A DNA stretch of 64,000 bases. Origin: an uncultured Erysipelotrichaceae bacterium (lineage in GTDB: Bacteria > Bacillota_I > Bacilli_A > Erysipelotrichales > Erysipelotrichaceae). A program made the translations under genes and the position numbers. The notes beneath the pieces were generated by a model. The model searched no databases, had not been told where the DNA came from, and was given only the letters and a program-made list of their open reading frames with translations. The stretch lies in contig CAMVGT010000001.1 of assembly GCA_947167125.1 (NCBI GenBank), positions 62,001 to 126,000 on the forward strand, given 5' to 3'. This document shows, in pieces, positions 5,313 to 61,914 of this stretch; the stretch's first letter is position 1; the number at the start of each line of letters is the position of its first letter.

Positions 5313-6132
5313 GAGTATGTCCTTTCAAACGTGTATAGTGCCGTTTCATATATTGAAGTACGATATGATCCATTACCGCAAGGGCTGCGAATTTGCCGGT
5401 GTCATCCCGGTTTGTTATGCCTATCGGAATCACATGGTCTGCCCGGTTCATCCGGTTGGAATTCGTGTTCTGAGTCAGAACAATGACCTTTGCGCCGGAG
5501 TCCATGATGATTTCTCCGAGATCATGATAATAGCTGAAGAAGCTTCCGCCTGCCGTGCAGATGATGGCTACGCAGTTTTCATCCAGTGATTTTGCGCATT
5601 CCAGCTGGTTCTCATAGGATTGATACAGTTCCACATATCTGTCCATCATGATCATCCTTGACTGGAAGAAATGACCGGCATTCCAAAGGAAATGATGGGA
5701 GAAGTACGCGGTTCTTTGCGCATCAGAGATCATATCCGCCGCTTTGGCGATCTTCTTCATGTTTTCAGCAGACAATGCGGATGTGATGTTGGCATTCACC
5801 TGTTCCGCATACATCTCAGCCGCCTTCTCATCCGAAGTCTTCAGCAAAGATCTGAACTGATCCGTATAATCATCCATCAGTCTGAATTCCATATTCAGAT
5901 CATCGTGGAAATTCTTGAAACTCGTATAGCCGAGAAAGCGGCAGAAGCGTGATATCGTCGCCTGGGATACATAGCAGAGGTCTGCCATCTCGGCGATTGA
6001 CATGCGTTTGACTTTTTCACTGTTTTTAACCAGTGTCAAAGCAATGTCATAGTAAGAATCATGTACCTGAGCTGTATTGATAAAATTAAGCAGCCTTTCA
6101 GAAACTGATCCCATGGAAATTCTGTCGTTCAT
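5305..6132 (-). CDS. RpiR/MurR family transcriptional regulator
   Basis: 275 residues with an N-terminal RpiR helix-turn-helix (about 15-75, with SIAEMADLCYVSQATISRFC) and a C-terminal SIS sugar-phosphate-binding domain. It sits between two glycosidase genes and is co-transcribed with them. It therefore most likely senses a phosphorylated disaccharide and controls this operon through the 19-bp palindromes at 7621 and 9065. That pairing is an inference from position. Confidence 0.85.
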   Translation of the reverse strand: MNDRISMGSVSERLLNFINTAQVHDSYYDIALTLVKNSEKVKRMSIAEMADLCYVSQATISRFCRFLGYTSFKNFHDDLNMEFRLMDDYTDQFRSLLKTSDEKAAEMYAEQVNANITSALSAENMKKIAKAADMISDAQRTAYFSHHFLWNAGHFFQSRMIMMDRYVELYQSYENQLECAKSLDENCVAIICTAGGSFFSYYHDLGEIIMDSGAKVIVLTQNTNSNRMNRADHVIPIGITNRDDTGKFAALAVMDHIVLQYMKRHYTRLKGHTHE

Positions 6133-7680: not shown

Positions 7681-8991
7681 TCAGGCTTCTTTTGATTCAG
7701 ACGCTGCGGCTTCCTGTTCCTCTTTATAAGCGATGTTGTCAGCGGCCTTGAAGAACGGATACCAGATGGCTGCACTCATCAGTGTTGCGATGATCTGATA
7801 GACACCGATCTTCCAGGAGCCCTGCAGAATACCATAGATGAGGATGGGCATGGAGCTGAATCCGATGATACCGGTGGGAATCGGCATCAGGCCAAGCTGG
7901 ATGAAGAGATAAGCCAGCAGCAATGACAGAATCGGAACCAGCAGGAACGGAATGATGAACATGAAGTTGTACATCAGCGGCATTGCGAATACGACCGGCT
8001 CATTGATATTGAAGAGTCCGACCGGAAGCACAAGCTTGGAGAAGGACTTGTAGCGCTTTGACTTGGCGAAGAGTGCCATGACAATGACAAGACCGAGTGT
8101 GCATCCGCAGCCGCCGTTGCATGCGAAGTCATACATGGAGATGTTCCACATGTGGGGAATTGTCTGGCCTGCGGCAGCCGCTGCCATGTTGTCACCGACA
8201 TAGGTGAACCAGATCGGGAACAGAACTGCGAGGACTGTATAGGAGCCATGAACACCGACGAACCACAGCAGCTGTGCGCAGATGATCAGGATGATGAATC
8301 CGGGCAGGCTTCCGGTGATATTGGAAAGCGGTGTCTGCAATACTGCATATACGGCATCAACGACATTTCCGTAAGGAGTCAGTGTGAAGAGGACACGGAT
8401 GATGCAGAAGACAATCGCGCAGAGTGCGCCGGGAATGATCGCTGTGAAGTTCTTTGTGACATTCTCAGGGACACCGGAAGGCATCTTGATGGTGATGTTT
8501 CTTTCCACAACCGCAATGTTGATCTTAGTGGTGATGATCGCAACAATGAATGCCAGGAAGGTTCCTCTTGACCCCATGTAGTTCATATTGACCAGGGAAT
8601 CACCTGCCTCATTGGCTGTTAAAGGGATCAGGATCAGATAGCCCATCAGAGCAAGGAATGCATTCTCATTGGCAAGTTCACCATGACCGAAGCTTTTGGC
8701 TGCAGCTCTGGCAACACTGAATACCATGAACAGTGACATGAAATTCATGGATGCGTTGTAGATTGCGCCAAGGCCGTCTCCGATGCCGGTGCTTGTCAGG
8801 AAGTTCTGGTACGGTTCAATCGGAATTGTGTTGAGCAGATTGAATACCGCACCGATCATGATGATCGCCATCAGACCCATGGAACCCTGTCCGATGGACT
8901 GAACGTACTTGTTCTGTGATACCTTCATGGAGAACGGTATCAGCTTTTCATTCAGGAACGAAGTTAAGAAGTTTTCTTTTGTTTCACTCAT
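7681..8991 (-). CDS. PTS system cellobiose-type IIC component
   Basis: 436 residues from the ATG at 8991, preferred because GGAGG lies 5 bases upstream. A longer frame begins at 9036 without a site. The protein has about ten membrane segments and the Lac/Cel family sequence style (IGQGSMGLMAIIMIG, then FNINEPVVFAMP). The NEPVVF motif is the conserved substrate-binding segment of EIIC-Lac/Cel proteins. Its function is uptake and phosphorylation of a beta-glucoside together with IIA and IIB, which are not encoded in this window. It heads the operon with two glycosidases and an RpiR regulator. Confidence 0.9.
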   Translation of the reverse strand: MSETKENFLTSFLNEKLIPFSMKVSQNKYVQSIGQGSMGLMAIIMIGAVFNLLNTIPIEPYQNFLTSTGIGDGLGAIYNASMNFMSLFMVFSVARAAAKSFGHGELANENAFLALMGYLILIPLTANEAGDSLVNMNYMGSRGTFLAFIVAIITTKINIAVVERNITIKMPSGVPENVTKNFTAIIPGALCAIVFCIIRVLFTLTPYGNVVDAVYAVLQTPLSNITGSLPGFIILIICAQLLWFVGVHGSYTVLAVLFPIWFTYVGDNMAAAAAGQTIPHMWNISMYDFACNGGCGCTLGLVIVMALFAKSKRYKSFSKLVLPVGLFNINEPVVFAMPLMYNFMFIIPFLLVPILSLLLAYLFIQLGLMPIPTGIIGFSSMPILIYGILQGSWKIGVYQIIATLMSAAIWYPFFKAADNIAYKEEQEAAASESKEA

Positions 8992-12608: not shown

Positions 12609-13907
12609 TCAGAGCGCTTCACCGTTTGTACGGATAATTTCTGCATAATAACGGGCAGAGTCCTTGATCGTTCTCTTCTGTGTTTCATAATCGATATGAA
12701 TCAAGCCGAAACGGGGACCGTAGCCGCTGCACCACTCAAAGTTATCCATAATGCTCCAATGCTGGTAACCGAGCACCGGAATTCCCTCATCAACGGCCCG
12801 GCTGACTCCCTGCAGGAAATCATGCAGGAACGTTCTGCGGATTTCATCATGCACGCATCCATCCGCTCCCACTTCATCGGGGTTGGCCATTCCGTTTTCC
12901 GTTACCATGACAGGCAGATGATACCGTTCCCAGTACTGACGGATCGTCCAGTACAGGCAGCGGCCGTCAATCACCCAGTCCAGCATCGTTTTCGGAAGCT
13001 TTTCTGTATCATAACCTTCTTTATTGAGCAGAGGATTTGAGGGCTGGTAGACATTCACGCCGACAAAATCCATCGGTTCGGAAATGATCTTCAGATCCTC
13101 TTCGCTGAGTTTCTGCGAAAGAATCGGGCTTGCCTTGCCGAGCGCGATCGGATCCATATATAAGGAGTTGCTGCCTTCGCCGACCTGGGAGAGGAATGAT
13201 TTTTCAGCAGCGTCTTTCAGGCCTTCCTCATCCTCACTGTCAGGGATATACGTGGTGGCTGCCATTGCCAGGCCGATGACAGGCTTTGTTCTGGCGGTCT
13301 CACGGATCAGCCTGACCGCTTTGCCATGGGCCAGCAGCATATTCCTTAACGCCTCCATGCATGCCTCTATATCCGTCCGGAACGGCGCGAAGGTGCCTAC
13401 GGCATATGACAGCATGATAAATACCGAAGGTTCATTGAATGTCATCCAGTACTGAACCTGATCAGAAAATGCGTCAACAGCAGCTCTGACATACTCAAGA
13501 TAGTAATCAATGATCTTCGGATCAGGCCAGCCGCCTTCTTCATGGACCCACAGCGGCAGATCCCAATGGTACAGAGTCACAAGCGGTTCAATCCCGGCTG
13601 CCCTGAGTTCACTGATCAGATTTCTGTAGAATTCAATACCTTTGGGATTGATCCTTCCTTTTTCGGGTATGATCCTTCCCCATGAGATTGAAAAGCGGTA
13701 GCTCTTCAGTCCCAGTTCTTTCATCAGGGCAACGTCTTCTTTATAACGATGGTAGTGATCACAGGCAGTGTGACAGGTCTGGCCGTTTTCAATATGATCC
13801 CCGGCGACATCCCAGATGCTCGGGCATCTGCCGTCCTCATCCCAGGCACCTTCAATCTGTGCCGCGGCGCTCGCTGCGCCCCATAAGAAATCTTTCGGAA
13901 AGCTCAT
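12609..13907 (-). CDS. Family 1 beta-glucosidase
   Basis: 432 residues with a complete GH1 plan: FPKDFLWGAASAAAQIEG at the start, acid/base Glu in MTFNEP (about residue 165), the YHWDLP strand, and the nucleophile in VTENGMAN near residue 345. No signal peptide is present. It lies 8 bases downstream of a GPH-family sugar symporter rather than a PTS gene. A non-phosphorylated beta-glucoside is therefore the likely substrate. Confidence 0.9.
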   Translation of the reverse strand: MSFPKDFLWGAASAAAQIEGAWDEDGRCPSIWDVAGDHIENGQTCHTACDHYHRYKEDVALMKELGLKSYRFSISWGRIIPEKGRINPKGIEFYRNLISELRAAGIEPLVTLYHWDLPLWVHEEGGWPDPKIIDYYLEYVRAAVDAFSDQVQYWMTFNEPSVFIMLSYAVGTFAPFRTDIEACMEALRNMLLAHGKAVRLIRETARTKPVIGLAMAATTYIPDSEDEEGLKDAAEKSFLSQVGEGSNSLYMDPIALGKASPILSQKLSEEDLKIISEPMDFVGVNVYQPSNPLLNKEGYDTEKLPKTMLDWVIDGRCLYWTIRQYWERYHLPVMVTENGMANPDEVGADGCVHDEIRRTFLHDFLQGVSRAVDEGIPVLGYQHWSIMDNFEWCSGYGPRFGLIHIDYETQKRTIKDSARYYAEIIRTNGEAL

Positions 13908-52735: not shown

Positions 52736-52812
52736 CGGAATGTAGCGCAGCTTGGTAGCGCACTTCGTTAGGGACGAAGGGGTCGCAGGTTCAAATCCTG
52801 TCATTCCGACCA
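52736..52812 (+). tRNA. tRNA-Pro (AGG), integration site
   Basis: 77 bases with CCA encoded. Acceptor CGGAATG / CATTCCG, anticodon stem CTTCG / CGAAG, loop TTAGGGA giving anticodon AGG (Pro). The 3' 46 bases plus one are repeated at 61868-61914, which shows that this tRNA is the attachment site of the element that follows. The gene stays intact because the element restores its 3' end. Confidence 0.95.
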
Positions 52813-52813
52813 T
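52767..52813. repeat. attL, 47-bp direct repeat
   Basis: Identical to 61868-61914. It spans from the anticodon loop to the 3' CCA of tRNA-Pro, the usual core for tyrosine integrases that use tRNA genes. Confidence 0.93.
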
Positions 52814-52854: not shown

Positions 52855-53943
52855 TTAACTCCGATTGAGAAGATTTTGAGAAGATTTGTTGAGAAGATTT
52901 GTGATTTCAGGATGCTTTTCATCCAACAGATGAGTGTATGTTTTCAGAGTAATATTGATATCTGAATGTCCAAGCCTTTTACTGACTGCCACAATGTTCA
53001 TTCCGTTGTTAATAAGGAATGTTGCATGAGAGTGTCTGAAGTCATGAATCCGAATATTTTTCACTCCGCTTCTTCTGATAGCACTGTTTTTTCTCTGCTG
53101 AACACAAGTCTCTGGAAACGGACGACTTGTTCCAAACATGAATGAATCTTCTGAGAATCCATCTTCATTTTCAACTGTTTCCTTATATTCCAACAGAAAT
53201 TGATTAAGAGCTTCATCGATATAAACTGTTCTGATACTCGACAAACTCTTAGGCATCTTGATTTCATACGGCCCTTTTGTAGTTTTCTTAGTGCACGATT
53301 TTGAAATACTCAGTTTGCCATCAGAGAAATCAGCCCAAGTTAAGGCGAGAGCTTCCCCAAGCCTCATTCCTGTGTTAAAGAGCGTGAAGTAAAGTGCCTT
53401 ATAACCAATGCCATCCACGCATTCCATAAACTTCATAAACTCTTCGTATGTCCAAATATTTGACTCACGTGCTTTACTCGCAATAACTTCATCGTTTGTT
53501 TTTTTGAATGTTTTAATTGCAGCTGCAGGATTTGTTTCAATGTAATGATGTGTAATTGCGTAATCCATAACCTCTTTCAATCCTGTGATACATCTGTTTT
53601 TTAATGAAGTAGCATACTTCAGGCGTCCAACAGAAATCCTATAGTTTTCACAGTCTGCAGTTGAAACAGTATTGATTGGCTTATTCACCATAACTTTTTT
53701 CATTACAAGCCTGACGTTTTCTTCATATTTAACGAACGATGTATACTGAACTTCTTCTTTTTTTATGGTCAGATATTCATCCATTACATCAAATAAGTAT
53801 CGTGAACACTCTCCATTTTTAGCTGTCAGTATTAATTCAGCTTCATAATTAATTGCATCCCTTTTGTATTTGAAACCTCTTTTTGTCTGATTCTGATATT
53901 TAACATACCAAGTCTTGGTGTGTGGATCTTTATGCACTGACAT
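52855..53943 (-). CDS. int: Tyrosine recombinase (integrase)
   Basis: 362 residues in the phage/ICE integrase style. The N-terminal arm-type DNA-binding part (about 1-55) is followed by a SAM-like core-binding domain and the catalytic domain: Arg in T-G-M-R-L-G-E-A, H-x-x-R in H-D-F-R-H-S-H, and the Tyr in L-K-T-Y-T-H-L. Tryptophans are coded by TGG and the stop is TAA, so it is neutral with respect to the code change seen downstream. Its 3' end contains three arm-like repeats. It is read toward attL, as is usual. Confidence 0.93.
   Translation of the reverse strand: MSVHKDPHTKTWYVKYQNQTKRGFKYKRDAINYEAELILTAKNGECSRYLFDVMDEYLTIKKEEVQYTSFVKYEENVRLVMKKVMVNKPINTVSTADCENYRISVGRLKYATSLKNRCITGLKEVMDYAITHHYIETNPAAAIKTFKKTNDEVIASKARESNIWTYEEFMKFMECVDGIGYKALYFTLFNTGMRLGEALALTWADFSDGKLSISKSCTKKTTKGPYEIKMPKSLSSIRTVYIDEALNQFLLEYKETVENEDGFSEDSFMFGTSRPFPETCVQQRKNSAIRRSGVKNIRIHDFRHSHATFLINNGMNIVAVSKRLGHSDINITLKTYTHLLDEKHPEITNLLNKSSQNLLNRS
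52865..52899. repeat. Arm-type repeats at the left end
   Basis: Three copies of TTGAGAAGATT at 52865, 52876 and 52889, overlapping the integrase 3' coding end. Two further copies (one with G as first base) lie near attR at 61770 and 61782. Their placement beside both att cores suits integrase arm-binding sites. Confidence 0.65.
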
Positions 53944-54296: not shown

Positions 54297-54716
54297 ATGA
54301 CAAACACAGTAAAAGTTATCGGCAACAACATTATCATCACAAAAGCATTCCTGAAGAATGCCCAGGTCTTCGGCACAGCTGAATACTACGCGCTCAGGAC
54401 AGTCAAGGCTGAAAACCCTAATGCTACCGTTCGGACAAAGGCCATCAAAAAGAATCCCGATAAGGAAACCTTCAAAAATGTCTCCTACGAAAACATGGAA
54501 TACTACATCTCTTTACAGCCCAACAAAGCCACTCATATGGCACATTACAAAATTGTCAGGGAAAGAAGCAAAATCCAGAAGTCGCCATATAAGTATGTTG
54601 CAAAATGGTTTGTCGACACATTCCCCGATTTCAGAAAAGCCCCTGTCTTTGCAACTTCTGCGGAAACCGCAGTGGAATACACAACCTCTACAGAAAGAAC
54701 AGCTTACGAAGCATAA
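54297..54716 (+). CDS. Element protein of unknown function, first paralogue
   Basis: 139 residues; GGAAAGG lies upstream of the ATG. The protein is basic and shares a layout with the next gene: a start strand, an (A)QV-G-(T/S)-A-x-Y helix near residue 25, a Y-x-N-M-x-(R)Y segment, and P-Y-x-Y-V-x-x-W-F-x-x-T-F-P near the C-terminus. The pair therefore arose by duplication. The family is not one I recognise. Trp is coded by TGG and the stop is TAA, so it can be translated under either code. It opens the recoded operon. Confidence 0.7.
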   Translation: MTNTVKVIGNNIIITKAFLKNAQVFGTAEYYALRTVKAENPNATVRTKAIKKNPDKETFKNVSYENMEYYISLQPNKATHMAHYKIVRERSKIQKSPYKYVAKWFVDTFPDFRKAPVFATSAETAVEYTTSTERTAYEA

Positions 54717-54739
54717 GAAAGGTAAAAAGGGAGAACAAT

Positions 54740-55216
54740 ATGAGAAACTATAGAATCGATTTCACGCATAACACAATCGTCGTAGATTACAAATTTGATA
54801 AGGCAGCTCAGGTAATTGGTTCCGCAGCATATGACGACCTGAGAAGAATTACAGCCGATTTCCCTTCAATGACCGTAAGAGTTGCATCTCACAGAGAACA
54901 GAAAAGCCCCCACTATACTAAACGTCTCAATTATAAAAACATGATTAGATACATGATGACGTTCGAGAATCGCGATGAACTTCTGGCTGAATTCAGAACC
55001 ATTCAGGAACAGTCTCACAATGCACCTTGTCCTTATGCATATGTAAGAACATGGTTTATGACAACATTTCCCAACTACAATCAGCCCGTTTGTAGAGTTA
55101 AACCCAAGCCATCTTTCAAATCCATTAATGAGGAGACGGTTAACTCCTCGAAGTCTATGCACTCCAATGCAAATAATTTGGACACTTTTGACAAAGAAAT
55201 CAGTCAGAATTTTTAA
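54740..55216 (+). CDS. Element protein of unknown function, second paralogue
   Basis: 158 residues from ATG 54740 with AAGGGAG upstream. It resembles the preceding gene along its first 115 residues (QVIGSAAYDDLR, then Y-K-N-M-I-R-Y and P-Y-A-Y-V-R-T-W-F-M-T-T-F-P) and adds a Ser/Asn-rich tail. Only TGG is used for Trp, and the stop is TAA. Spacing of 23 bases to the previous gene and 26 to the next suggests one operon. Confidence 0.7.
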   Translation: MRNYRIDFTHNTIVVDYKFDKAAQVIGSAAYDDLRRITADFPSMTVRVASHREQKSPHYTKRLNYKNMIRYMMTFENRDELLAEFRTIQEQSHNAPCPYAYVRTWFMTTFPNYNQPVCRVKPKPSFKSINEETVNSSKSMHSNANNLDTFDKEISQNF

Positions 55217-55242
55217 AAACAATAGAAGGAGAAATAAAGATT

Positions 55243-55692
55243 ATGGAAAATATTGAATTTTGATTAGATCTCAAAAGAGGAAGACAGGCCGAAGTGCTTG
55301 TCGCAAATGCATTCAGAATAATGGGCTACGATGTCATGGATATGACAAAGAACCCCGTATTCTGAAAAAAAGACGTGGACTTACTTATCTGAGACCACGA
55401 CAAAACAAAATACATGTTTGAAATCAAAGCGGATTGAAACATGCATAAAACAGGTAATGTAGTGCTGGAGCTTACAAGCAAAACAGGATCGCAAGGTTGA
55501 TTCCGGACATCTGAGGCTACCCACTTCGCTATCTGTGATATGCAGAACCGCATATGTTATATTGCGCGTGCCAGCGAATTAAGAGAGTATGCGCAGCAGC
55601 ATCCAGATCTGCCGCAGATCCGACTGAATGACTGTGAGTGTTTACTCGTAAATACCAATGAATGTCCCCTATTTCAGAAGATCCATATTTAG
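55243..55692 (+). CDS. PD-(D/E)XK-type nuclease with five in-frame TGA (Trp) codons
   Basis: Read with TGA as Trp this is a 149-residue protein ending in TAG, with AGAAGGAGA 10 bases before the ATG. TGA falls at codons 7, 41, 50, 65 and 86, and no TGG is used. The reading gives G-R-Q-A-E-V-L-V-A-N-A-F near the start, then K-K-D-V-D-L-L-I-W and M-F-E-I-K-A-D-W. This is the D...ExK core of PD-(D/E)XK nucleases (Asp46, Glu60, Lys62, helix Glu17). It resembles Holliday-junction-resolvase-like or restriction-type enzymes. In the standard code it would stop after six residues. No TAA, TAG or frameshift interrupts it. Confidence 0.75.
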
Positions 55693-55700
55693 GAGGCAGT

Positions 55701-55922
55701 ATGACAAAAGAGGAAAACAGAAAGCTTGCAGATGAAATCAGGACGATTATTAAGCAGCTCCGGGCAAAAGGTTATACTTACAAAATCTTTTACACTGTAG
55801 TTAACTACAGCCCCACCAACTGATACAACTTCATGAGAAACTACAACATGTCTGACGATGATTTATTGGCTTTGAAAAAGTTTATAGAAGAAGAATACAG
55901 GATCAAAATAGAAAGGTGGTAA
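55701..55922 (+). CDS. Small helical protein with one in-frame TGA (Trp) codon
   Basis: 73 residues when TGA at 55821-55823 is read as Trp41 (S-P-T-N-W-Y-N-F-M-R-N-Y-N). AGGAGG lies 5 bases upstream of the ATG, and the gene begins 8 bases after the nuclease stop. The last codon before TAA is TGG, so both Trp codons occur in the same gene. The sequence looks like an all-helical DNA-binding protein (K-Q-L-R-A-K-G-Y-T-Y-K-I-F), but no family is clear. Confidence 0.65.
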
Positions 55923-55924
55923 TT

Positions 55925-56344
55925 ATGCCGACAACAGTCCCCAACCAGAAGACAATCACTATTAGTAAAGAACCCTGTGATAAAGATAACTACTATGCAA
56001 AAATCAACCTTAATGCATTACAGCTGGCATTAAAAGCACTCACCCCGGCACAATTCAAGGTCTGGATCTATTTTGCAAAGAACCAGAACAGCCATACCTT
56101 CGCACTGTCGCCGCAAGCTGCTGAGGAATGGGGAAACGCACGCACCACATTTAACAGAACAATTACCACATTCATTGACGAAGGTTATTTGATTGGCAAA
56201 GAAGGCAGTAATCGCTATACCTTCTATGAGATCCCCAAAGAAAAAGGAACATTTATCCCCTACCATGGAAAACCAAAAGAAGAAGAAAAAGGACGGGACT
56301 TCTCCTGATCCCCTGCGCCGACCATTATGGACACGCAAGAATAA
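55925..56344 (+). CDS. Winged-helix replication- or regulation-type protein, possible TGA read-through tail
   Basis: The ATG at 55925 follows the previous stop by 2 bases, with AAAGGTGG as its site. Residues 35-100 look like a winged helix (L-K-A-L-T-P-A-Q-F-K-V-W-I-Y-F, R-T-T-F-N-R-T-I-T-T-F-I-D-E-G-Y-L), as in small Firmicute plasmid initiators or transcription factors. In the standard code it ends at TGA 56306-56308 (127 residues). With TGA as Trp it gains W-S-P-A-P-T-I-M-D-T-Q-E and ends in TAA at 56344 (139 residues). Given its neighbours the longer form may be the native one. Confidence 0.65.
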
Positions 56345-56417
56345 TGGCCGGTTTTATTTATGCTGCGTTATCATAAATTATGTCCATGAAGGATAGAGAA
56401 ATATAATAAATAATATG

Positions 56418-56522
56418 AAAAAGCCTTCGGCTTTTTATACATAACATGACTATTCAAATCCCTTCGGGCTTTGAATAGTAGAAAAAACTCTTTAAGTCCC
56501 TTCGGGCCTTAAAGAGTTTTTT
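56418..56522 (+). terminator. Three tandem hairpins sharing a CCTTCGG apex
   Basis: Three hairpins stand in a row: 56418-56436 (AAAAAGCC-TTC-GGCTTTTT), 56449-56479 (stem ACTATTCAAA plus CCC, loop TTC) and 56482-56522 (a 15-bp stem plus CCC, loop TTC, T-run). The second and third also share the same single T/C mismatch below the apex. They separate the first five cargo genes from the next two. They may be terminators, but a role as single-strand replication origin is also possible. Confidence 0.7.
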
Positions 56523-56558
56523 AGCGCCAAGAGAGAAAATCCAAAGGAGGAAATGAAG

Positions 56559-56747
56559 ATGGATATAAACACAACATACTCGATCCAAAAGGGTTGATTA
56601 CCCGAAAGATATAGAAATCAGATAGACCAGACATTCAGCATTCAAGAGAACTACATATCAGAAAAAAATCGTGCGTATAGCGAAGCAATTGAAGAACCGG
56701 CAAAAGAAACTGTTGTCAATATAGAGACAACATATCAGGAGATCTAA
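56559..56747 (+). CDS. Small acidic protein with one in-frame TGA (Trp) codon
   Basis: 62 residues from ATG 56559, which has AAAGGAGG 8 bases upstream. TGA at 56595-56597 encodes Trp13 in Q-K-G-W-L-P-E-R-Y-R-N-Q. The rest is Glu-rich (Y-S-E-A-I-E-E-P-A-K-E-T). The stop is TAA. In the standard code only a 12-residue peptide would be made. No family is recognised. Confidence 0.6.
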
Positions 56748-56749
56748 CT

Positions 56750-56908
56750 ATGGCAAAAAAGAAAAAGAAGAAAAGCCAGGACTCAAAACGAAAGATTACC
56801 AAAAGAAACAGCAGCGTTCTTGAATATGAAATTATGAAGATGATGGAATCGTGCTTGAAGACAGCAGTCAACACAGCATTAGATAGTGTCTTCAAAGACT
56901 GACAGTAA
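56750..56908 (+). CDS. Small Lys-rich protein, possible TGA read-through end
   Basis: The ATG at 56750 is 2 bases after the previous TAA, and the previous gene's end supplies AGGAGAT as binding site. It starts M-A-K-K-K-K-K-K and continues with a helical segment (V-L-E-Y-E-I-M-K-M-M-E-S). The standard reading stops at TGA 56900-56902 (50 residues). With TGA as Trp it becomes F-K-D-W-Q and stops at TAA 56908 (52 residues). The gene ends 7 bases before the 100-bp recombinase repeat. Confidence 0.55.
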
Positions 56909-56915
56909 TATGCTC

Positions 56916-57018
56916 TATCCAGCCTACAAGGCCGGCGCAATCAATAAAACAGAACTTGCGAGGATCTGTGCGTTGTCAAGAAGTTCTGTTTATAAATACT
57001 TGGATCTTTTGGAGTAAA
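56916..57018 (+). pseudogene. 3' fragment of a serine recombinase gene, TAA-ended copy
   Basis: Bases 56916-57015 are identical to 58567-58666, the last 100 bases of the serine recombinase gene. They encode the C-terminal HTH (Y-K-A-G-A-I-N-K-T-E-L-A-R-I-C-A-L-S-R-S). This copy has no start and ends in TAA, whereas the full gene ends in TGA. It is followed by its own terminator-like stem. It marks the border between recoded and standard-code DNA. Confidence 0.88.
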
Positions 57019-57332: not shown

Positions 57333-57611
57333 CTATTTTTGTGTATTTTCCCGAATCTTCGCCAACCATTCATTGGTAGCTTCATCTTCTACGTATTCCA
57401 TTATATCTGCTGGTTGACACTCCAGAAACGCACAAATTCTGTTAAGGCTATCATAAGAAAGCCCTGTTCCACCATGGCGCATCTTTTGAAGTGTAGCTTC
57501 GCTTACTATCTTGTGTTTTCTAATTTCTGTAGTTTTAACATTCTTCGCTTTCATCAGAGCAAAGAACTTATCGTACTTGATCATATGTTTTGGCTGCTTC
57601 GGGGCCCTCAA
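57333..57611 (-). CDS. XRE-family HTH regulator
   Basis: About 92 residues. The Cro/CI-type helix-turn-helix spans residues 18-75 (F-F-A-L-M-K-A-K-N-V-K-T-T-E-I-R-K, then S-E-A-T-L-Q-K-M-R and L-N-R-I-C-A-F-L-E-C-Q-P-A-D-I). A TTG at 57611 has GGAGGAGAGG 9 bases upstream and is preferred; an internal ATG at 57584 would give the core domain only. The gene diverges from 57777, and four operator copies lie between them, so it is very probably the repressor of both. Confidence 0.8.
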   Translation of the reverse strand: MRAPKQPKHMIKYDKFFALMKAKNVKTTEIRKHKIVSEATLQKMRHGGTGLSYDSLNRICAFLECQPADIMEYVEDEATNEWLAKIRENTQK

Positions 57612-57636
57612 AGTCAGGTCCCTCTCCTCCAATTAT

Positions 57637-57746
57637 ATAATACTCTATTATAAGAGTAAAGTCAAGCCATTTTGAGCAAAAAACTCTAAAATAAGTGTAA
57701 AATACTCTAATTATAGTGTTGACAACTCTAATATTAGTGTTATAAT
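57637..57746. promoter_or_regulatory. Divergent promoters with four operator copies
   Basis: Four 16-bp near-palindromes of the type ACTCTA-N4-TAGTGT lie at 57642, 57683, 57704 and 57725. The rightward promoter is TTGACA (57719) - 16 bases - TATAAT (57741), and the fourth operator fills its spacer exactly. The leftward promoter is TTGACT (57665-57660) - 17 bases - TATTAT (57642-57637), with the first operator in its spacer. This is a compact two-way switch for the XRE regulator. Confidence 0.82.
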
Positions 57747-57776: not shown

Positions 57777-58055
57777 ATGACAAACGCACAGATTATCAAT
57801 CAGATCAGAGAACTCAACGAATACGAAGCACTCCTCGAAGAAGTCAAAGCCGCAGCTGATGCAATCAAGGATTCCATCAAGGCAGAGATGGAAGCAAGAG
57901 ACACTGAAGAACTCACAGTCGGCATGTATACAGTACGCTGGACTTCAGTCCTCTCCAACAGATTCGATACAGTTAACTTCAAGAAGTCTTATGGAGAGAT
58001 CTACAAGGCTTACACGAAGCAGGTTTACTCCAAGAGGTTCACAGTTAGCTGCTGA
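57777..58055 (+). CDS. Small coiled-coil element protein
   Basis: 92 residues with AAAGGAG 9 bases before the ATG. The first half is a charged coiled coil (I-R-E-L-N-E-Y-E-A-L-L-E-E-V-K-A-A-A-D), the second strand-rich (M-Y-T-V-R-W-T-S-V-L). The shape resembles small phage proteins that wrap a nuclease or single-strand-binding partner, but I do not recognise the family. Trp is TGG and the stop is TGA, and reading through would give a scrambled tail, so the standard code applies here. It is controlled by the operator array and leads into the recombinase. Confidence 0.7.
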   Translation: MTNAQIINQIRELNEYEALLEEVKAAADAIKDSIKAEMEARDTEELTVGMYTVRWTSVLSNRFDTVNFKKSYGEIYKAYTKQVYSKRFTVSC

Positions 58056-58080: not shown

Positions 58081-58668
58081 ATGACAGTTTACGGCTATGC
58101 AAGATGTAGCACCAATGAAGACAAACAAGATATTAATCGTCAGGTGCGCGAACTCAAGGCGGCCGGCGCAGAAGAGATCTTCTTAGAATATGAACACGGA
58201 GACGCTGCCGTTAAGCAACAGCTTACGGCGCTGCTGGCGGCAGCGGCACCCGGATCGACCATTCTGGTTCTGGAGATATCCAGACTTGCCAGAAGCACAA
58301 AGCAGCTGTGCGATATCATTGAGATCGTGAAGGAGAAAAAACTGTGCCTGAAGGTTGTTGGATCTATTACAGTAGACTGCACGTCAGGTGTTCTGGATCC
58401 TATGACGAACGCATTTGTCCAGATGTCAGGCGTGTTTGCGGAATTAGAATTACGGATTATAAGAGAACGTGTCCGTAGTGGTATGGCTAATGCCAAAGCG
58501 AAAGGCGCAGCTATCGGCAGACCCAAAACAACAAAAGACGACATACCTGCCGTCTTCTATAAACATTATCCAGCCTACAAGGCCGGCGCAATCAATAAAA
58601 CAGAACTTGCGAGGATCTGTGCGTTGTCAAGAAGTTCTGTTTATAAATACTTGGATCTTTTGGAGTGA
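58081..58668 (+). CDS. Serine recombinase (resolvase/invertase family)
   Basis: 195 residues. The catalytic Ser is in Y-A-R-C-S-T near residue 9, Q-x-x-x-L-follow-up and the R-L-A-R-S motif near 65 complete the active site, and the long E helix (E-L-E-L-R-I-I-R-E-R) is typical. The C-terminal 45 residues form an HTH (with I-G-R-P before it). Size and layout are those of plasmid resolvases and Hin-like invertases, not large integrases. AAGGAGG precedes the ATG and the stop is TGA. Its last 100 coding bases are repeated at 56916-57015. Confidence 0.92.
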   Translation: MTVYGYARCSTNEDKQDINRQVRELKAAGAEEIFLEYEHGDAAVKQQLTALLAAAAPGSTILVLEISRLARSTKQLCDIIEIVKEKKLCLKVVGSITVDCTSGVLDPMTNAFVQMSGVFAELELRIIRERVRSGMANAKAKGAAIGRPKTTKDDIPAVFYKHYPAYKAGAINKTELARICALSRSSVYKYLDLLE

Positions 58669-58691: not shown

Positions 58692-59201
58692 TTATTCATC
58701 GACCTTTGAAGATACAGAGCCACTAACACTTACAGGACTGTATTGAACTTTCAAGAATTCATCAAACAACGCTATATCGGGACTAATGCTTATCTCACAG
58801 CTTCCGCTCGCATTACCTTCATTATCGAGGGTAATACTCACTGTTTTGGTTTCTGACTTAGCATATGTTCCCGCACCAATCCCATATTGTTGTCCGGCCT
58901 TTTTCGCAGGATAATACGTTAAAATGATATCCAAGTCGATTGTTGCATCATAGAACTGATACATTGAAGACTGCGATTTAATATCATATTTAACTACATA
59001 ATTACTGTATCCAGTCGTCTTCTTTTCGCCTTTATATGATGTCCCAGTTCCGCTATAGTCGCCATATAAAACAAGGTATTCACTAATATTATCAGTGGTC
59101 AACTCTGTGCTATTCGTCTTCCCGCTATTTGTGCCATTCGAACTGCACCCCGCAGAAAAAACAAGGCAAATCACACATAAAAGAAATACAAATTTTTTCA
59201 T
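58692..59201 (-). CDS. Lipoprotein of the element
   Basis: 169 residues from ATG 59201; a GTG three codons upstream is closer to the AAGGAGA site and is also possible. The signal ends in the lipobox F-S-A-G-C. The mature protein has alternating strands (I-D-L-D-I-I-L-T-Y-Y, T-K-T-V-S-I-T-L-D) and Ser/Thr/Gly-rich loops, suggesting a beta-sandwich. The family is unknown. It is convergent with the recombinase gene and lies downstream of two SHOCT proteins. Confidence 0.75.
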   Translation of the reverse strand: MKKFVFLLCVICLVFSAGCSSNGTNSGKTNSTELTTDNISEYLVLYGDYSGTGTSYKGEKKTTGYSNYVVKYDIKSQSSMYQFYDATIDLDIILTYYPAKKAGQQYGIGAGTYAKSETKTVSITLDNEGNASGSCEISISPDIALFDEFLKVQYSPVSVSGSVSSKVDE

Positions 59202-59222
59202 ATCAATCACACTTTCTCCTTA

Positions 59223-59819
59223 TCAATAATCCTTAAGTTCTTTTGATAGTTTCTTGTTTATTTTATCTATATGCAGCGGGTCGTAATCAGAGCCAAGACA
59301 GGCAGAGCTGTTGCTTTCGAGAATATACCCCTCCTTGCCGATGAAATAACAACTTGTCGACCTGACCCCAAGAGCATTTTCTGCAGAAATATTAGCAAAC
59401 ATTGTATCTTCCACAACGGTTCCATTTACTAATTTTACAGTTGATGGAAATTTGAAGTTCTTAGCTGCTTTTACCATCAAATCATAAGCAACTTTATCGC
59501 TTCCAGATAATGTATTCATGTTAATGAAAATCGCCAAAAGAATTACAGCAACGACACAAATGCCTGCAATAAGGGCTTTACTAATCCGTATTGAAGGAGT
59601 TTTCTTTTTTTGACTTGTAATCTCTTCTGGCTGTTGCGAGAGAAGAACAGCCTTTTTTTGGTTAAATTCCTCCTCCGTCAAAATTCCATCTTTATAAAGT
59701 TGATGATATTTGTTGATTTCATCAGCAGCAGAAATTGACATATTGTCTGTTGATTCAGACAATTTCTGCTTAACACTATCAGTGTCTTTTGTTTCTAACA
59801 ATTTGTTATCTTCCGACAT
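59223..59819 (-). CDS. SHOCT-domain membrane protein
   Basis: 198 residues. A SHOCT motif (E-I-N-K-Y-H-Q-L-Y-K-D-G-I-L-T-E-E-E-F-N-Q-K) lies at about 35-58, a single membrane helix at 80-103, and the outer C-terminal domain has strand-like segments with two cysteines. SHOCT motifs are thought to mediate oligomerisation. The gene precedes the lipoprotein by 13 bases. Confidence 0.75.
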   Translation of the reverse strand: MSEDNKLLETKDTDSVKQKLSESTDNMSISAADEINKYHQLYKDGILTEEEFNQKKAVLLSQQPEEITSQKKKTPSIRISKALIAGICVVAVILLAIFINMNTLSGSDKVAYDLMVKAAKNFKFPSTVKLVNGTVVEDTMFANISAENALGVRSTSCYFIGKEGYILESNSSACLGSDYDPLHIDKINKKLSKELKDY

Positions 59820-59845
59820 TTATGCCTCCTTTGATCTCAGGATTG

Positions 59846-60127
59846 TCATTTGAGTAAATCAGCTTTTTTTCTGTCAAACTCTGCTTGAGTAATTACCCCG
59901 TCATCAAGAAGCGCCTTATATTTTGACAATTCATCAGCTGCGCTTATTCCTTTCGGAACCACTGGGGCATTTTTATCAGGGATTAAATTTACATGTATAA
60001 TTGCAACAATAAATAGCATCCACCCATAAAACCACCACAGTCCAAAACTATAACCTTTATTCTTTGCAATGTTTGCGGGTATCAAGCCTAATCCTGCAGC
60101 AACTAACAGTGTAATAAATAATTCCAT
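59846..60127 (-). CDS. Small SHOCT-domain membrane protein
   Basis: 93 residues with two membrane helices (about 4-22 and 31-51) and a C-terminal SHOCT motif (E-L-S-K-Y-K-A-L-L-D-D-G-V-I-T-Q-A-E-F). It is the first gene of a three-gene leftward unit (two SHOCT proteins and a lipoprotein), which together look like a surface-exposed module. Confidence 0.75.
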   Translation of the reverse strand: MELFITLLVAAGLGLIPANIAKNKGYSFGLWWFYGWMLFIVAIIHVNLIPDKNAPVVPKGISAADELSKYKALLDDGVITQAEFDRKKADLLK

Positions 60128-60208
60128 ACTATTATTTTCCTCCTGCCTTTAGATGTGCTTACATTTTTCAGTATACCAAAATGTAACTACATTCTCAATA
60201 ATTGAGGC

Positions 60209-60412
60209 ATGAAAATCAGCTATGCACCATTGTGGAAAACCATGGCTGAAAGAAACATCAGTACCTATCGTTTAATAAAGGATTATGAAATCAGCGCCAG
60301 AACGATAAACAATTTAAAGCACGATGTTTCTATCACCATGAATACCTTATGTAAATTGTGTGAGATTCTTTCATGCACCCCGAACGATATAGTTGAATTC
60401 ATCAAAGACTAA
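60209..60412 (+). CDS. Cro/CI-type HTH regulator
   Basis: 67 residues, almost entirely a helix-turn-helix (M-A-E-R-N-I-S-T-Y-R-L-I-K-D-Y-E-I-S, then T-I-N-N-L-K-H, ending C-T-P-N-D-I-V-E-F). It is of the YozG/XRE minimal type. It diverges from the SHOCT gene across 80 bases and probably controls that unit. Confidence 0.82.
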   Translation: MKISYAPLWKTMAERNISTYRLIKDYEISARTINNLKHDVSITMNTLCKLCEILSCTPNDIVEFIKD

Positions 60413-60503
60413 TAATCATTGAATTATAAATGCAGGATTATCTGATTCTGTGTTTTTTTATACAATACAAGTATGAAGTGATGCTTTTAGGAGGCTTATG
60501 CGC

Positions 60504-61667
60504 ATGTCCAACACGGCCGCCGCAGGTGGAAAAAGACCAAATCAAACATATAAATCGTTGATGGTTTTTTATATTCTTCTCAAAATGACCGATAAGGACC
60601 ATCCGATGGAAACCACACGGATCAAAGAAATTCTTTCTTCTTTTGGGATCCAAGCCGAAAACTTATCAATCCAAAGAGATATAAAAAACCTCAGATATCT
60701 TTTGGATGGTGAAGAGTATCAGGAAGAAGACTTACAAGATATTCTCTTTGAAATTCTGAATGATGAATTTGAATATGAATATGACGAAGAATTAACTACA
60801 AAACTATTGGAATTGGATTATAAGATTTCTTACGATGCACGTATCAATAATATGAGCGGTACAAGAGGATTTAAGATGGCTAAACGGCCATATAATACAA
60901 ATGACCTCTGGCTGCTGATTGAAGCCGTAAACGGCCTTAAATCGATCTCTGAGGACACATCTGATCATCTCAAGAAAATTATCCTGTCGTTAGCTAATAT
61001 TTTCGAATTGCAATCGTTATCTATTGATACCTATGTTCCAAATAGAATTGAATCCGCAAGGGACATGATTCTTGTTAACATTCCACGAATTAACGTTGCA
61101 ATCAGAAATAATAAACAAATTAGCTTTGATTATCTGCGTTATCAGTTTGTGAATAAGAAGATCGAACAAAAACCAAGTAAATCAAGAAGAACAGTATCCC
61201 CTATCCAACTGATCTATAACGAAGGATTGTATTATTTGATGTGCCTTGTCAGTTCAAGTGCTGGCAGTAAACCAAGAAGACTTTTATATAGAGTGGATAA
61301 AATGGTTAATATCAGGCAAGCTGAAGAGGATCGGATTGAAGAGGTTTTCACAGAAGAATTGGATCTCGAATCATTCTCGAAACGTGCATTCAATATGTTC
61401 CAAGGCAGGAAAACAAAAATAAAGATCTTATTTGATGATGGCCTTTTGGATACAATGACAGAACGCTTTGACATAAAAGATCCTGATATCAGATATGCAA
61501 AACATGATGATACACACTTTACAGTCTATGCTCCGATAGAAGTCAGTGACCAATTCTTCTCTTGGATCTGCGGATTCAGAAAAAAGGCAAGAATCTTATC
61601 TCCTGCCCATGTTGTGAATGATTTTAAAGACTACCTTTCAGATGTCATGGAAACATATTCAAATTAG
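60504..61667 (+). CDS. WYL-domain transcriptional regulator
   Basis: 387 residues from ATG 60504, which has AGGAGG 9 bases upstream; ATG 60498 is too close to the site. An N-terminal winged HTH (about 15-75) is followed by a WYL domain at about 190-270 (S-F-D-Y-L-R-Y...V-S-P-I-Q-L-I-Y-N-E-G-L-Y-Y-L-M) and a C-terminal WCX-like extension. WYL regulators often bind nucleic-acid ligands and control defence or mobile-element genes. It ends close to attR and is the last gene of the element. Confidence 0.88.
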   Translation: MSNTAAAGGKRPNQTYKSLMVFYILLKMTDKDHPMETTRIKEILSSFGIQAENLSIQRDIKNLRYLLDGEEYQEEDLQDILFEILNDEFEYEYDEELTTKLLELDYKISYDARINNMSGTRGFKMAKRPYNTNDLWLLIEAVNGLKSISEDTSDHLKKIILSLANIFELQSLSIDTYVPNRIESARDMILVNIPRINVAIRNNKQISFDYLRYQFVNKKIEQKPSKSRRTVSPIQLIYNEGLYYLMCLVSSSAGSKPRRLLYRVDKMVNIRQAEEDRIEEVFTEELDLESFSKRAFNMFQGRKTKIKILFDDGLLDTMTERFDIKDPDIRYAKHDDTHFTVYAPIEVSDQFFSWICGFRKKARILSPAHVVNDFKDYLSDVMETYSN

Positions 61668-61862: not shown

Positions 61863-61867
61863 ACTGA

Positions 61868-61914
61868 GTTAGGGACGAAGGGGTCGCAGGTTCAAATCCT
61901 GTCATTCCGACCAT
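61868..61914. repeat. attR, 47-bp direct repeat
   Basis: Identical to 52767-52813 at the 3' end of tRNA-Pro. It marks the right boundary of the element. Confidence 0.93.

Follow-up and report, generated by a model that had tools for sequence, protein, structure and literature searches.

The 64,000-nt stretch of DNA analysed here (the window) comes from an uncultured Erysipelotrichaceae bacterium (GenBank assembly GCA_947167125.1, contig CAMVGT010000001.1, positions 62,001 to 126,000) and holds a 9.1-kb element, element A, integrated at a tRNA-Pro gene between attL (52762-52813) and attR (61863-61914). Judging from the sequences of this element and its relatives, UGA almost certainly encodes tryptophan in a block of genes in the middle of the element. 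By their codon counts, the integration, regulator, 57777-type and resolvase genes and the paralogous pair p1/p2 are written in the normal code, and several of them end at a real TGA stop (genes are named by a window coordinate; see the table below). A first-pass annotation had described one recoded cargo segment in a tRNA-integrated element whose remainder is not recoded; the same code split is seen in six further elements (B-G), so that it is a pattern of an element family, which spans three genera of the host family. How can such genes be read in bacteria for which UGA is a major stop codon?

Codon usage and selection in the middle block

Read with translation table 4, 55243-55692 contains five internal TGA codons and ends in TAG, 55701-55922 has one TGA and one TGG and ends in TAA, and 56559-56747 has one TGA and a TAA end. 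The seven TGA codons (5 + 1 + 1) for which these three genes had been said to need tryptophan are therefore all there. The first-pass annotation had gone further and taken the whole of 54297-56908 as recoded, which holds for 55243-56908 only; the two leading genes, 54297 and 54740, use TGG only, and the recoded block is 55243-56908. It had also proposed that two more genes continue past their TGA. Both do reach a TAA. At 56750 the added tail (Trp, one residue, stop) is also present in two diverged homologues, so this TGA is probably sense; readthrough of 55925 would reach a TAA at 56344, but here the tail is not conserved and the case is ambiguous.

Is this a peculiarity of a few genes? Across the seven elements, 38 middle-block genes contain 42 internal TGA and 27 TGG codons, no internal TAA and no internal TAG. 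All 38 end in TAA or TAG, including 11 without any TGA, the block frames that ended in TGA having been extended to TAA/TAG by construction. The mixed use of TGA and TGG, even within 55701, and the restriction of unambiguous stops to TAA and TAG, both noticed in the first-pass annotation, are thus borne out in the whole family. The 30 other genes counted have 51 TGG and no internal TGA, and seven of the 30 end in TGA, among them the integrase in E and F, the counted recombinase gene in C and the resolvase in A. The difference in TGA/TGG usage between block and other genes is large (Fisher p = 2.8e-14) for gene sets that we chose from lists of open reading frames (ORFs) and homology, with about three approximate starts and with the variable-end cargo genes and the helix-turn-helix (HTH) genes of B-G left out. 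In alignments in which every TGA was masked as X, the homologous residue at TGA columns is a TGG-encoded Trp, Phe or Tyr in 27 of 44 cases, compared with 295 of 3193 (9%) at other columns (p = 1.7e-17). One and the same Trp column can be TGA or TGG depending on the element, as happens at two columns of the DnaD-like gene and in a family that we call gene X, where one element has TGA ('RwVEED') and another has TGG ('RWVEQD'). Together, the exclusive presence of TGA among internal stops, the split between gene sets and the aromatic columns exclude chance. Two points pull the other way: the partner residues are non-aromatic in 17 of the 44 cases, and a few TGA codons could be true stops (the end of 55925, and a gene of B at 8216, near its end).

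Could the TGA codons still be ordinary decay, with cargo that is dead and has picked up nonsense mutations? Passages of PMC7918605 do report that genes of mobile elements often contain in-frame stops. However, decay would also have produced TAA and TAG, as the first-pass annotation had argued, and the 42 to 0 to 0 count and the position of TGA at Trp and aromatic columns do not look like it. Selection gives the same answer. The ratio of nonsynonymous to synonymous substitution (dN/dS; Nei-Gojobori, table 4) was sought for 15 pairs, three of which were not computable as synonymous sites were saturated. For TGA-containing genes it is 0.13 for the nuclease-like gene 55243 (A/B), 0.14 for 56559 (A/B) and 0.10 for gene X (E/F), and, again for E/F, 0.12 for an HTH gene, 0.20 for the DnaD-like gene and 0.10 for the 'ALwLA' gene. 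The standard-coded genes of the same elements give 0.06-0.23 (resolvase A/B, 0.10). After the first TGA, the uncorrected proportions (pN/pS) are 0.14-0.44 for A/B, A/C, B/C and E/F pairs; high values are found for gene X in E/G (0.74 after the first TGA, and 0.65) and for the DnaD-like gene in E/F after the last TGA (0.75). The TGA codons themselves are kept between elements despite near-saturated synonymous sites. By these ratios, the protein parts downstream of TGA are under purifying selection, and the usual signs of pseudogenes (relaxed selection, mixed nonsense codons, frameshifts) are not seen. The first-pass annotation had named, as evidence that would tell against it, TGG-bearing relatives in standard-code hosts together with elevated dN/dS of the copies here; a standard-code phage does carry a homologue with TGG, yet the recoded copies show low dN/dS. 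The counts, columns and selection data refute the decay reading, to which we give next to no weight.

Gene content and the element family

The plus-strand genes of 54297-56908 form an operon-like run, with gaps of 2-26 nt from p1/p2 through 55925. The features of the element are listed below.

Table. Features of element A in window coordinates, with the basis of each assignment
Feature	Position	Strand	Basis
attL, 3' part of tRNA-Pro(AGG) gene 52736-52812	52762..52813	+	tRNA call; 52-nt direct repeat
Tyrosine integrase, standard code, 3 TGG / 0 TGA	52855..53943	-	Pfam PF00589 1.4e-21; PHROG 1 2.5e-60
p1, paralogue of p2, standard code, first gene of left operon	54297..54716	+	homologues in three other elements
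p2, paralogue of p1, standard code	54740..55216	+	homology; codon count
PD-(D/E)XK-fold nuclease-like gene, five TGA = Trp, 0 TGG	55243..55692	+	alignment; AlphaFold; fold matches
Small gene, MTKEEN family, one TGA = Trp and one TGG	55701..55922	+	table 4 translation; codon count
DnaD/replication-initiation-like gene, TGG in this copy	55925..56308	+	PHROG 186 4.4e-6; alignment
Three successive hairpins with CTTCGG loops, terminator-like, between 55925 and 56559	56418..56522		sequence; hairpin scans
Small gene, TGA at codon 13, same codon in element B homologue	56559..56747	+	table 4 translation; alignment
Small lysine-rich gene, conserved end Trp(TGA)-[K/Q]-TAA in three elements	56750..56908	+	alignment
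R1, exact 100-nt copy of resolvase 3' end	56916..57015	+	repeat scan
Regulator-like gene, HTH type suggested by sequence and position, standard code	57333..57632	-	homologues in other elements
Four-copy operator-like array of ACTCTAATATTAGTGT	57642..57740		motif scan
Phage-type small protein, PHROG 6244, TGA stop	57777..58055	+	PHROG scan
Serine resolvase, TGA stop, contains R2 (58567-58666)	58081..58668	+	PF00239 5.7e-30
Variable end: two lipoprotein-like genes, membrane-protein-like, HTH-like, WYL-domain regulator; all standard code	58692..61667		ORFs; codon counts
attR, repeat of tRNA-Pro 3' part	61863..61914	+	direct repeat

With Trp placed at its TGA positions, the 55243 protein gives an AlphaFold model with a mean predicted local distance difference test (pLDDT) score of 88.1. 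The model matches the folds of I-Ssp6803I (E 3.7e-4), D212 and archaeal Hjc, as well as many phage proteins, and a sequence search of the PDB returned marginal matches only. Residues D44, D46, E60 and K62 are invariant across four nuclease homologues and, by comparison with the D..E-x-K pattern of PD-(D/E)XK-fold nucleases, which the protein shows together with the fold, are the probable catalytic residues. Relatives of 55243 occur in three of the 315 genomes of the order, the host included; the other two belong to the same genus, are 61-63% identical and carry three and four internal TGA codons and no other stop. None was found in the phage and plasmid collections searched, and a scan of genome contigs with the nuclease returned a single Bacteroidetes stretch with 37 residues matched. 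In IMG/VR the sole match is IMGVR_UViG_3300012983_002435 (L124), the standard-code phage piece mentioned above. It has TGG at both nuclease columns that are TGA in three elements and other residues at the remaining TGA columns.

The two ends of the element are 96% identical over the 52-nt repeat. Between the minus-strand regulator-like gene and 57777, four operator-like palindromes are found, three of them at 21-nt spacing; the array has six strand matches to ACTCTAATATTAGTGT, a number reached in 0 of 100 shuffles. The homologues of 57777 in elements D-G share its C-terminal end and then have TAA, where A has its TGA stop. In the variable end, the WYL-domain regulator was recognised by PADLOC (8.7e-25), and the names of the lipoprotein-like, membrane-protein-like and HTH-like genes are readings of the sequence. 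No recognisable family was found for p1/p2 in Pfam and PHROG scans.

With the resolvase as query (E <= 1e-55), relatives of the element are found in seven of the 315 genomes, of which four belong to two further genera. The surroundings in B and C hold the same block and the same regulator-57777-resolvase module as A. Elements D-G also have TGA-containing middle genes, mostly of other families; gene X is present in all four genomes of the further genera, in no other of the 315, and has no relative in IMG/VR. In three elements, att-type repeats lie in tRNA genes 8.6-9.4 kb apart; measured between the repeats, elements are 8.6, 9.1 and 9.3 kb long. A resolvase search of IMG/VR returned five loci, none of which matches any of 23 other element proteins. 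One more candidate element (L202, on contig C72 of genome G248) repeats part of contig C9 of that genome, is probably assembly redundancy and was not counted.

A side feature concerns the resolvase itself. In three of the seven elements (A, B and C) an exact second copy of its 3' end lies about 1.65 kb upstream, on the far side of the regulator-57777-resolvase module. The copies are 100 nt long in A, 94 nt in B (locus L041, 4179-4272 / 5842-5935) and 138 nt in C (L042, 11896-12033 / 13535-13672); they are identical inside one element, and between A and B the similarity is about 75-80%. For D-G, a second copy was not reported. The duplicated end may be a site at which the resolvase actively recombines DNA. 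Element C is also adjoined by type I restriction specificity and methyltransferase genes (L042 13681-16069).

How is the block decoded?

Has the host changed its code? The release factor 2 (RF2) gene prfB is full length in all three hosts examined, the window's genome included, and of the window's 40 host ORFs with 150 aa or more, half (20) end in TGA. The first-pass annotation had suggested looking across the genome for a tRNA-Trp with anticodon UCA. None turned up among the 36 tRNA matches of the window's genome (35 read by ARAGORN, and one at a contig end with a CTT anticodon by eye), in which the only tRNA-Trp is CCA, nor among the tRNAs read in two same-genus hosts (41 and 58 matches). 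Because the counts and ratios above speak for selection, prfB is intact, TGA serves as a stop and the only tRNA-Trp is CCA, the explanation is neither decay nor a change of the host code.

Under standard-code translation, synthesis would end at codon 7 in the nuclease, codon 41 in 55701 and codon 13 in 56559. As selection keeps the full-length proteins, some condition must exist under which UGA is decoded as Trp; the element has no suppressor and the host uses UGA as a stop, so that the altered reading must come from outside the element. Where could it come from? Parts of PMC10746230 and PMC10879173 describe phages of code 4 (UGA = Trp) that infect standard-code bacteria and bring a suppressor tRNA, sometimes with a tryptophanyl-tRNA synthetase and release factor 1, and propose that recoding delays some genes until the suppressor tRNA is made. 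Our favoured reading is that element A is satellite-like and that its replication and nuclease genes can be translated only once an opal-suppressor tRNA reaches the cell, for instance from a code-4 phage; we put this at about an even chance. In the resident state the block would be mostly silent as ribosomes stop early at UGA. Its products would be a DnaD-like replication protein, the PD-(D/E)XK nuclease and small DNA-binding or HTH-like proteins, and a Trp-charged opal suppressor in the cell would make them translatable. The likeliest source would be an infecting phage that reads UGA as Trp and brings a Trp-accepting UCA tRNA, so that the helper's altered code would be the trigger of the element, and the nuclease and replication genes could then act for the element or against that phage. 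That decoding is conditional and triggered by a suppressor from outside is a claim that, for now, could fall either way. Somewhat more tentative is the idea of a code-gated island, in which the code itself would wake a satellite or spring a defence against code-changing phages.

Phages with the required kind of tRNA do exist in IMG/VR. Two scans for UCA tRNAs picked out 32 and 12 contigs, and ARAGORN, which labels Trp-like UCA tRNAs 'SeC', was run on 13 of the 32 and on 11 of the 12 (the twelfth was already in the first set). Five phages (L221, L224, L225, L227 and L228) carry tRNAs of the AGGGGT...CTTCAAA...ACCCCTGCCA type that were called UCA. Two of the five, L221 and L228, encode a tRNA-Trp(CCA) too, and one of the five is on a 237-kb contig. 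On a 523-kb contig with the UCA pattern (L152), 97% of 9.9 kb lies in long frames if TGA is sense, compared with 49% in the standard code; such comparisons are inflated by base composition, and only this strongest case is used.

Several results count against an outside suppressor. Element A contains no tRNA besides its tRNA-Pro target. One UCA-tRNA pattern run over the 315 genomes matched 26 places in 24 genomes, and ARAGORN called no UCA tRNA there. Searches for a recoded terminase (PF03237; matches in 8 of 264 family genomes) and a recoded capsid protein (PF05065; 11 of 70 genus genomes) returned none with internal stops. No code-4 phage is known among the phages shown to infect these hosts, and the element family is small, at seven genomes. 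Bacterial genomes are not expected to hold a lytic helper, so the helper absences are weak evidence either way. Two tRNA arrays of another genome (G081, contigs C42 and C24) were considered as phage-like and dropped, as the contigs are host chromosome in standard code, with two unassigned tRNAs that read GAT and GTC by eye.

Is an outside suppressor needed at all? UGA is leaky and read as Trp in bacteria, at 6% in wild-type Bacillus subtilis and 19-54% in prfB mutants (passages of PMC7918605), and many block genes have a single TGA. Leaky readthrough by the host tRNA-Trp(CCA) might then suffice, with UGA tuning expression down and no switch of code. However, the nuclease has five, three and four TGA codons in three elements and at 6% each the product would be negligible; moreover, the codons following TGA are of 24 kinds among 42, with no fixed stimulating context. 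We therefore regard leaky readthrough as unlikely, if a serious contender. The element could also relieve termination itself, for instance if RF2, the ribosome or tRNA-Trp were the target of p1/p2 or of some other standard-coded product. In favour of this, p1/p2 lie directly upstream of the block in A, and homologous pairs precede it in E, F and G; against it, no match to them was found in B, C and D within the stretches read, and they have no recognisable family. We regard this explanation as improbable. The free mixing of TGA and TGG would be explained if the block had been acquired from, or cycled through, a host whose normal reading of UGA is Trp (a Mycoplasma-like code 4). Against this, seven diverged elements in three genera of one family show the same code split, prfB is present in three hosts, and code 4 would read through the TGA at which 7 of the 30 other element genes end; this origin is quite improbable.

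Decoding by a suppressor from outside thus stays our preferred explanation, at the even strength given above. What is at stake is recoding kept by selection in small integrated elements that lack a suppressor, in bacteria with UGA as a major stop. If a phage supplies the suppressor, the genetic code would act as a signal between elements, and the question of why phages recode stops would become directly testable. Standard gene callers fragment the block genes, and the element family is probably under-counted.

Comparison with known systems

Small integrative elements with a serine resolvase and a tyrosine integrase resemble this family in their att repeats in tRNA genes and in the cargo at one end; unlike them, these elements have a recoded middle block and, in three of seven, the duplicated resolvase 3' end. 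Phage satellites (PICI, P4-like, PLE) are small and combine a tyrosine integrase at a tRNA att site with a repressor-like regulator and a replication-type protein. Element A has the integrase and att sites and is like them in size, in its regulator, in its replication-type and phage-type genes and in a variable end, with defence-type genes adjoining C; it differs in that no helper, packaging signal or capsid-remodelling gene was identified. No convincing virion structural family was found in 10 window genes and 10 genes of relatives, 58692-60412 not having been scanned against PHROGs. By analogy only, a satellite-like life style fits the att spacing, the lack of recognised structural genes and the restriction-modification genes by C. 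To our knowledge, code gating is not part of any satellite.

The phage piece L124 has DnaD-like and nuclease homologues close together, as in the element; unlike the element, it uses TGG for Trp in both and has a terminase-like gene (our reading of an ORF). Compared with code 4 itself, UGA at Trp columns with TAA/TAG stops is found in the middle block only, and a UCA tRNA and the absence of RF2 are not found. The alternatively coded phages of Borges et al. (2022), as described in passages of PMC10746230 and PMC10879173, share with the elements UGA = Trp in part of the genes and a standard-code host, whereas the elements are about 9 kb, chromosomally integrated and without recognised structural genes or a UCA tRNA. 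In literature searched at title level, with passages of PMC10746230, PMC7918605, PMC9610469, PMC13037316, PMC11210395 and PMC10879173, no recoded satellite was found. The kind of recoding is thus known from phages, and its occurrence as a fixed half of a suppressor-free family of integrated elements appears, in the searches made, to be new.

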